A program made the position numbers and the translations under genes. From Ignavibacteriales bacterium (lineage in GTDB: Bacteria > Bacteroidota > Ignavibacteria > Ignavibacteriales > Melioribacteraceae): a stretch of 64,000 nucleotides of DNA. This document shows positions 28,978 to 31,230 of the stretch, one piece after another. The notes beneath the pieces were generated by a model that had not been told where the DNA came from, ran no database searches, and saw nothing but the letters and a program-made list of their open reading frames with translations. The DNA lies in contig JAGUYK010000033.1 of assembly GCA_020061355.1 (NCBI GenBank), positions 1 through 64,000 of the forward strand, read 5' to 3'. How positions within the stretch are numbered: position 1 is the first letter of the stretch; the number at the start of each line of letters is the position of its first letter.

Positions 28978-29770
28978 TATTATTATTTTTTTCCAAGTTA
29001 TCCGATAATTGTTCACTAACTAGACCGAACCTCCGTTCTCTCTGCTGATAGTCTTTGACAGCAGCAATTAAGTGCTTCGATCTAAATTCAGGCCAAAGTA
29101 AATCAGAAACAAAAATTTCGGCATAGGCTATTTGCCATAAAAGAAAATTACTTATTCTTAATTCACCACCGCTTCTAATTAAAAGATCGGGGTCGGGTAC
29201 TTCCGACGTTGTTAAAAATTTTGAGACCAGTTCTTCAGAGATCTCATCGGTTTTTAGTATACCGGATTCTACTTGTGCAGTTATATTCTTTACCGCTTCT
29301 ACAAGTTCCCATCTTCCGCTGTAGCTCAAAGCCAGATTCAAAGTCATTTTAGTATTTGAAGAGGTCTTATTTACAGCTTGTTGAAGTTCATTCTGAACAA
29401 TTTCGGGTAAAGATTTTACATCACCAATTGTTGTAAGTCTTATTTTATTTGAATTGAGCTCATCGGTCTCATTCTGAAGACTTCTAACAATTAATCGCAT
29501 TAACATTGAAACTTCATCTTTAGGGCGTTTCCAGTTTTCAGTGGAAAACGTATAAAGAGTAAGAAATTTTACTCCTAAGCCAACACAGGTTTCAACAACT
29601 GCACGAACCGAATCAACCCCTTTTTGATGTCCGGCAACTCTGGGTAAATTACGTTTCTTTGCCCATCGACCGTTACCATCCATAATAATTGCAATATGGC
29701 GTGGAATATTACCCTTTGCTTTAGTCTCTTCTATTAACCGGATTTCTTTTGTGTTTAACCTTGCGGCCAA
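28946..29770 (-). CDS. uppS: Isoprenyl (undecaprenyl) diphosphate synthase
   Basis: This cis-prenyltransferase makes undecaprenyl diphosphate, the lipid carrier for peptidoglycan and O-antigen. The 274-residue protein has the catalytic IAIIMDGNGRWAKKR (Asp near residue 30), VAGHQKGVDSVR, TLYTFSTENWKRP and the C-terminal DLLIRSGGELRISNFLLWQ, ending in a non-conserved Asn/Asp-rich tail. The frame opens with TTG and has no ATG before the conserved core, so a TTG start is inferred. A promoter lies 31 bases upstream, making it first in the operon uppS-bamA-skp-skp-lpxD-lpxC/fabZ-lpxA-lipM. Confidence 0.95.
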   Translation of the reverse strand: MAARLNTKEIRLIEETKAKGNIPRHIAIIMDGNGRWAKKRNLPRVAGHQKGVDSVRAVVETCVGLGVKFLTLYTFSTENWKRPKDEVSMLMRLIVRSLQNETDELNSNKIRLTTIGDVKSLPEIVQNELQQAVNKTSSNTKMTLNLALSYSGRWELVEAVKNITAQVESGILKTDEISEELVSKFLTTSEVPDPDLLIRSGGELRISNFLLWQIAYAEIFVSDLLWPEFRSKHLIAAVKDYQQRERRFGLVSEQLSDNLEKNNNNANTHSKQLA

Positions 29771-30546: not shown

Positions 30547-31176
30547 TTAATTATAACTTCTAAATACTCCGATTACTTTACCTACAACTGAAAAATCTTC
30601 GTTGTTTTCGATTATAATCGGATCGTATTTTTCATTTTCGGGTATTAAATAAATTTTTTGGTTTACCAAAGAGTATCTTTTCATAGTTGCTTCATCCTTA
30701 AGTAATGCAACAATTATATCACCGTTTGAAGCTTCTTTCTGTGGCTGAATGATAACTAAGTCTCCTTCCAGGATACCTGCATTTATCATACTATCGCCAC
30801 GGACTTTTAAACCAAAACATTCAGTTCGGCTTCCCAGGAAATTTTTGTCGATTATAATATTCCCTTCAATATTTTCCTCAGCTAATATCGGTTGACCGGC
30901 AGCAACACGGCCAACTACAGGAATTTCAATTATTGTTTCTTCTTTTTGAACCGGATCATTATTGATGATTAGAGAAAGAGTTCGGCTGAGATTATTACTT
31001 GAATTTAAATAACCCTTTTTGACAAGTGCATCAATATGACGCTTAACTCCGAATGTACTAACTATTTTGAATTTTTGCCCGATCTCCCTGTAAGTAGGGG
31101 GAAAACCATTAAAATCCACATATTCCTGAATAAAGTTTAAAATTTCTTTCTGGCGTTCGGTTAATACGATTTTCAT
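30547..31176 (-). CDS. lexA: LexA repressor
   Basis: LexA represses the SOS regulon and cleaves itself when RecA filaments form. The 209-residue protein has an N-terminal winged helix (1-66, with PPTYREIGQKFKIVSTFGVK), the self-cleavage site Ala93-Gly94 (VAAGQPI), and the catalytic dyad Ser129 (RGDSM) and Lys166 (EATMKRY). The length is normal. AAGGA precedes the ATG by 10 bases. Two identical-geometry palindromes overlap its promoter and ribosome-binding site, indicating autoregulation. Two small genes follow within 20 bases of each other. Confidence 0.96.
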   Translation of the reverse strand: MKIVLTERQKEILNFIQEYVDFNGFPPTYREIGQKFKIVSTFGVKRHIDALVKKGYLNSSNNLSRTLSLIINNDPVQKEETIIEIPVVGRVAAGQPILAEENIEGNIIIDKNFLGSRTECFGLKVRGDSMINAGILEGDLVIIQPQKEASNGDIIVALLKDEATMKRYSLVNQKIYLIPENEKYDPIIIENNEDFSVVGKVIGVFRSYN

Positions 31177-31178
31177 GA

Positions 31179-31224
31179 TAGTGTTCCTTTGTTCACTACG
31201 AATATAGTGAACAGAATATCACTA
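31179..31224 (-). promoter_or_regulatory. Tandem candidate LexA operators TAGTG-N10-CACTA
   Basis: Two 20-base inverted repeats lie head to tail: 31205-31224 (TAGTGATATTCTGTTCACTA read on the minus strand) and 31179-31198 (TAGTGAACAAAGGAACACTA), separated by 6 bases. The first fills the spacer between promoter elements; the second covers the Shine-Dalgarno and stops 2 bases before the ATG. The geometry (5-base arms, N10) equals the E. coli LexA box TACTG-N10-CAGTA with C and G exchanged. The inner arms also form a 22-base inverted repeat (GTTCACTA-N6-TAGTGAAC). Confidence 0.75.
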
Positions 31225-31230
31225 TGTCAA
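31199..31230 (-). promoter_or_regulatory. lexA promoter
   Basis: Minus strand TTGA(CA), 20 bases, TATATTCG. It reads equally as TTGACA-18-TATATT. It is interleaved with the candidate LexA operators and lies 23 bases before the lexA ATG. Confidence 0.65.

Follow-up and report, generated by a model that had tools for sequence, protein, structure and literature searches.

The question raised by this locus is whether two inverted repeats of the form TAGTG-N10-CACTA, found before a lexA gene in a 64,000-nucleotide stretch of an Ignavibacteriales genome (the window, i.e. the whole stretch analysed), are the operators of the LexA repressor and represent the SOS box of this lineage. The product of the gene has the canonical LexA domain, with matches to Pfam LexA_DNA_bind and Peptidase_S24, and it scores 216 bits against the NCBIfam model TIGR00498 (cut-off 111), which identifies it as a LexA repressor. 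The Ala-Gly self-cleavage site (A93-G94) and the catalytic dyad S129/K166 are present and are invariant in an alignment of 18 sequences; the catalytic residues were also aligned to solved LexA chains.

The original prediction of two TAGTG-N10-CACTA repeats with the same geometry and a 6-base gap at the lexA promoter was exact. These two boxes (Table 1) are the only exact copies in the window; 1000 dinucleotide shuffles of the window gave a mean of 0.023 exact sites, and none of the 1000 contained two. Their predicted overlap with the lexA promoter region was also confirmed. Read along the lexA strand, TTGACA is followed by the distal box, TATATT (for the most part within the gap), the proximal box and ATG. 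The distal box sits in the spacer of TTGACA-N18-TATATT and the proximal box lies in the leader, ending 2 bases from the start codon. A dyad-symmetric site over lexA's own promoter is what is expected of a LexA operator. A further inverted repeat, TGTTCACTA-N6-TAGTGAACA, perfect over 9 bases, arises from the inner half-sites of the twin boxes. The B. subtilis-type GAAC-N4-GTTC had been described as absent. No perfect copy is found at the lexA promoter (the sole one in the window is at 29027, outside the promoter), but there is one GTTCACTA/TAGTGAAC half in each box, and the claim holds only for the perfect palindrome.

Table 1. Coordinates of the lexA promoter elements in the window and of the polymerase gene clusters discussed in the text.
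Feature	Stretch	Positions	Strand	Remarks
lexA	window	30547..31176	-	209 aa; winged HTH and S24 peptidase; Pfam and NCBIfam matches
Proximal LexA box (predicted), TAGTGAACAAAGGAACACTA on the lexA sense strand	window	31179..31198	-	between -10 and start codon
Distal LexA box (predicted), TAGTGATATTCTGTTCACTA on the lexA sense strand	window	31205..31224	-	inside the -35/-10 spacer
Central inverted repeat, TGTTCACTA-N6-TAGTGAACA	window	31190..31213		the two boxes contribute their inner half-sites
-35 hexamer TTGACA	window	31225..31230	-	relatives also keep it immediately before the distal box
-10 hexamer TATATT	window	31201..31206	-	in and beside the inter-box gap; column conservation in relatives
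Split DnaE2-type polymerase genes	L046 (window genome, contig C8)	10129-11778; 13186-14883	-; +	break between palm and fingers
Gene run behind the LexA2 box in G028	L290	1157-6730		lexA2, UPF0047, O6-methylguanine methyltransferase, DUF72, DinB, DnaE2 N-half

A LexA search of 58 genomes of the family gave a match in 54. Two of these (G049 and G057) have only a distant LexA, leaving 52 primary promoters. Twin boxes are found before lexA in all 52, the window's own genome included. The box-finding script always reports the two best windows of a promoter, hence a control with shuffled promoters was included: the weaker box matches the consensus at 10 or more of 14 letters in 51/52 family promoters (9 in G028, Ignavibacteriales bacterium Tobar12.5m-G23), compared to 2 of 2600 shuffled promoters. 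The exceptions within the 52 are G035 and G050, two genomes of one genus with an N8 spacer in the distal box, which the script mis-registered, and G028, in which the bases are changed. The gap between the boxes is 6 in 47 promoters and 5, 8, 8, 8 and 9 in the others (by eye, 6 in G035 and 8 in G050). In the family the outer TAGTG/CACTA and an inner C and G are best conserved, whereas the inner AA/TT differ from site to site. Several genera have a degenerate outer half in the distal box (e.g., CCTG). Over 47 aligned promoters no column upstream of the -35 has more than about 0.4 bit of information, and conservation falls again past the proximal box. A further sample of 40 lexA promoters (two from this family, 38 from two others in the order) has twin boxes in 40/40, every box with at least 11 letters. 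The gap is 6 in 37 of these and 8, 9 and 9 in the remaining three, and several have a proximal box whose right end, beside the start codon, is degenerate.

The 3.69-Mb genome from which the window derives contains three exact copies of TAGTG-N10-CACTA, two of them adjacent at lexA. The shuffle rate of the window predicts about 1.3 exact copies per genome by chance, so it is only the location of the third copy, not the number, that is informative. It is found at G000:C8:75175 in the divergent promoter between dinB (minus strand) and the gene for the C-terminal half of DnaE2 (dnaE2C, plus strand); the gene for the N-terminal half (dnaE2N) follows dinB. From the lexA and dnaE2 sites we drew a refined consensus, TAGTGNNCANNTGNNCACTA, and the core of the lineage box can be written as TAGTG-NNCA-NN-TGNN-CACTA. 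A search of the same genome for this refined pattern with up to two mismatches gave five places, namely the three known boxes and two places in or at coding frames. Relaxed searches gave no enrichment: TAGTG-N10-CACTA with up to one mismatch occurs at 37 places (reversed control, 72), and allowing up to three mismatches in the refined pattern gives 44 (reversed control, 88). Since the weak sites are rarer than the reversed control, they are indistinguishable from chance, and a wider regulon was rejected on these counts and on the coding position of the two extra two-mismatch places. The demonstrable regulon, as judged by the scan, is therefore small, with lexA and dinB/dnaE2 as its predicted members.

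In the 58 family genomes an exact TAGTGNNCANNTGNNCACTA was found at 20 sites (13 at dnaE2C, 6 at lexA and 1 at a Y-family polymerase gene) and the reversed control at none. Finding sites at lexA and dnaE2 is partly circular because the consensus was built from them; what the search adds is the lack of exact copies outside SOS genes. In a class sample of 197 genomes, 19 of the 32 from Ignavibacteriales and 0/165 others carry an exact TAGTGNNCANNTGNNCACTA (control pattern, 2/197). The 10 sites in genomes of the order outside the family are all located at lexA or dnaE2C. A single box precedes dnaE2C in 30/30 loci read (own genome included), taken from 35 family genomes with the gene, at -25 to -142 from the first matched codon. 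No second window with at least 11 letters was found at these 30 loci, except for an overlapping register in one. The box is present at SOS genes other than lexA (dinB/dnaE2 and the Y-family polymerase gene), as a LexA operator should be. The expected enrichment at SOS genes was borne out for dinB/dnaE2, the Y-family polymerase gene and lexA (20/20 exact refined sites) and failed for recA, where no box was found at any of 30 loci read (0/30, taken from 54 genomes with a recA hit; the 320 bases preceding the Pfam match were read). By position weight matrix the best recA site scores 5.4, the proximal lexA box at least 17 in 51/52 promoters (lowest 8.5) and the dnaE2 boxes at least 15. The distal lexA boxes have a median of 18.3, and the lowest eight range from -9.8 to 11.3; as such low-scoring boxes exist, a degenerate recA site may still be there. 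Small LexA regulons without recA have been reported for other LexAs, so a recA site was not taken as defining a LexA operator.

The single boxes at dnaE2C bear on two other readings of the lexA promoter. The working operator could be one extended site on TGTTCACTA-N6-TAGTGAACA, with the outer halves as extras and one dimer bridging the -10. The inner halves (GTTCACTA, TAGTGAACA) are better conserved than the outer ones and make up the perfect repeat in the window, and G035 and G050 have one box shortened to N8, all of which would fit such a site. However, one N10 box stands alone at all 30 dnaE2C loci, the gap between the lexA boxes varies while N10 is constant, and it is N10 that yields the dyad geometry of E. 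coli. We consider the extended site unlikely. Alternatively, the repeats may work as an RNA hairpin in the lexA leader, given that the proximal box is in the likely transcript and adjoins the start codon. The distal box is upstream of the likely start point, however, and the same element occurs at unlinked promoters at the varied distances given above, and we give the hairpin hardly any credence.

In all likelihood the twin repeats are LexA operators by which lexA regulates itself, with a single copy serving dinB/dnaE2; binding, repression, cleavage and damage induction are what we infer from the comparison. One LexA dimer would sit on each 20-bp box. Two dimers would extend from the -35/-10 spacer over the -10 and the likely start point into the leader and switch lexA off (autoregulation), and the single copy would repress the translesion-synthesis genes dinB and dnaE2. 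RecA filaments would then promote LexA self-cleavage and the boxes would be freed. The pair had been expected to define the SOS box of the lineage; the twin boxes at lexA in 52/52 and 40/40 promoters and the dnaE2C box in 30/30 loci support this, and the repeats are very probably, as a prediction, the SOS switch of Ignavibacteriales.

The E. coli LexA box is TACTGT-N8-ACAGTA and E. coli lexA carries two boxes. The Ignavibacteriales box resembles it in the 20-bp dyad geometry and in being doubled at lexA. It differs in that C and G are exchanged at positions 3 and 18, as had been noted by comparison with TACTG-N10-CAGTA, and in that the position of Glu45 in E. coli LexA is Arg in the window LexA. 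In PMC3091678 the E. coli box is given as CTG(TA)5CAG and the Gram-positive SOS box, that of B. subtilis, as CGAAC-N4-GTTCG. The E. coli-type CTGT-N8-ACAG accounts for 2 of 134 family sites, and both belong to G028. The B. subtilis-type GAAC-N4-GTTC, not perfect at the lexA promoter of the window, occurs at 5/134. There is some Gram-positive likeness, as TAGTGAACANNTGTTCACTA contains GAAC-N4-GTTC and the Y-family polymerase box of G016 also contains a perfect copy; the difference is that the Ignavibacteriales family conserves the outer letters and varies the inner AA/TT.

The box of Fibrobacter succinogenes LexA is TGCNC-N4-GTGCA. Fibrobacter LexAs come next after those of Ignavibacteria among 80 named loci (50-51% identity), and their lexA promoters carry TGCCCAATTGTGCA or a similar sequence in the same -35/-10 spacer, some of them sharing the central CA-NN-TG. 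The outer bases differ, and five Fibrobacter promoters inspected by eye have a second partial copy, TGTGCA[C/G]TG, which is placed before the -35 and not past the -10. An exact TGCNC-N4-GTGCA was found at only 2 of the 134 family sites. The two groups share the position and the core but differ in the outer letters and in where the second copy lies, so the Ignavibacteriales box is, by this comparison, a new variant of the known LexA boxes, nearest to that of Fibrobacter and overlapping the Gram-positive core. The repeats are real; the proposal of TAGTG-N10-CACTA as a new consensus needs amending, as the consensus is longer and akin to the Fibrobacter and B. subtilis boxes. In Fibrobacter, Latescibacterota and one other bacterium (L187-L192, L194), the lexA -35/-10 spacer or its vicinity holds a related palindrome, which suggests an old shared operator position.

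Balneolaeota, a neighbouring phylum, also have a canonical LexA with a regulon centred on translesion polymerases, but their motif TTACACATATTTTWTACATA is a direct repeat and their regulon includes recA (PMC7739468). The non-canonical LexA described for Bacteroidetes, a related group that likewise places error-prone polymerases under SOS control, has a CI-like DNA-binding domain and the motifs CTAA-N5-TTAG and GGA-N5-TCC (PMC8565304), whereas the window LexA has the canonical domain. Among the matches listed from the open literature, no paper was on LexA sites in Ignavibacteria. The repeats provide a candidate SOS operator, open to experiment, for a mostly uncultured order between Balneolaeota with their direct-repeat motif and Bacteroidetes with a different repressor.

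A joint change of box and recognition helix was found in G028 (L113, L186, L304). Its three boxes have CTG/CAG in 5/6 half-sites, and its dnaE2C box, TACTGTACAAATGTACAGTA, is E. coli-like (TACTG/CAGTA). DNA contacts of E. coli LexA are made by Ser39, Asn41, Ala42, Glu44 and Glu45 (PMC3091678). The window LexA has S, F, G, K and R at these five positions. The Glu45 position is Arg in 54 of 55 LexAs of the order, with CACTA-type boxes, and Thr in G028, whose helix reads SVNGAKTH compared to STFGVKRH, with two DNA-contact positions changed. No other LexA with more than 55% identity to that of G028 was found in 165 genomes of the order, so the shift of box and helix is a single event. G028 is a natural experiment on LexA specificity in which boxes and helix have both moved toward the E. 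coli side. Asn41 occurs with CACTA-type boxes in G013 and in four LexAs of the 40-genome sample, and Lys or Gly at position 45 occurs with CACTA-type boxes in 5/40 LexAs of the further sample. A one-residue code at position 45 was held back on account of the latter; with these combinations and one event only, no such code is proved. The left half of the proximal box is TGGTG in 5/5 of the Lys/Gly-45 LexAs (L370, L371, L375, L353, L354). This link is only suggestive, as GGTG halves occur with Arg too.

A second, distant LexA (LexA2) is found in 29 of the 58 family genomes, with 35-40% identity to the window LexA; no primary LexA was found in G049 and G057. Another repressor controlling lexA and dnaE2 could use the repeats, since the attachment of LexA to them is a prediction from comparison and half of the family genomes encode this second protein. 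LexA2 has a palindrome of its own, however: TACCATAC-AAAT-GTATGGTA, with at least 17 of 20 letters, is found upstream of 15/18 lexA2 genes read (of 30). In addition, the window genome has a single LexA match at E 1e-20, and the G028 boxes differ jointly with the helix of the primary LexA. A different repressor is accordingly very improbable, and the primary LexA is retained as the predicted ligand of the repeats. The LexA2 palindrome, TACCATACAAATGTATGGTA, is 20 bp long and has the same geometry as the primary box (L116-L133, e.g., L122, L297).

The chief gene downstream of the box encodes an error-prone polymerase in split form, and many genera have conserved it. DnaE2 is coded in two pieces, an N-half with PHP and polymerase alpha domains and a C-half with finger and HHH domains and an OB match below the cut-off. 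With the DnaE1 rows (most about 1150 aa) set aside, the open frames in the family reach at most 614 aa for the C-half and at most 592 aa for the N-half. The two halves presumably form one enzyme. Searched by term, two surveys of bacterial DNA polymerases (PMC12926913, PMC3919608) gave no mention of a split DnaE2; the latter states that some fragmented polymerase sequences were rejoined where intact relatives existed. No paper on a split DnaE2 was found among the literature matches listed, as judged by title and start of abstract.

The gene arrangement varies. The two halves are divergent around one box (G210, L313), and dinB with the N-half is divergent from the C-half in the window genome, G045, G012 and G022. 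N precedes C in G010, and C precedes N in G019 and G013. The N-half lies within 15 kb of lexA2 in G028, G003, G014, G009 and G017, and in G028 and G003 it shares a gene run that is preceded by a LexA2 box. In G028 the C-half has a LexA1 box while the N-half run follows the LexA2 box. Nine other N-half loci (L285, L286, L288, L289, L291, L293, L294, L295, L300) have neither box type in the stretch read. We tentatively propose, at somewhat less than even chances, that the damage-induced DnaE2 of Ignavibacteriales consists of two proteins that would have to meet (PHP and palm; fingers, HHH and OB), with one or both genes under LexA boxes, that some genomes such as G028 have a two-repressor gate, and that the operator switched between TAGTG and TACTG together with the helix. 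If true, mutagenesis in such genomes would be gated by two repressors, with the halves under LexA1 and LexA2.

In the class sample examined for DnaE2 (149 genomes, 38 with a match), the polymerase is split, as it is in f1, in families f2 (510-584 aa, four genomes) and f13 (four genomes with 587-606 aa and one with a piece of 298 aa). Four of the 19 rows of f4, f12 and f23 and the two rows of f22 are 470-849 aa long and may include frames cut at contig ends. DnaE2 is mostly full length in f4, f12 and f23, with frames of 1037-1111 aa in 15/19 rows.
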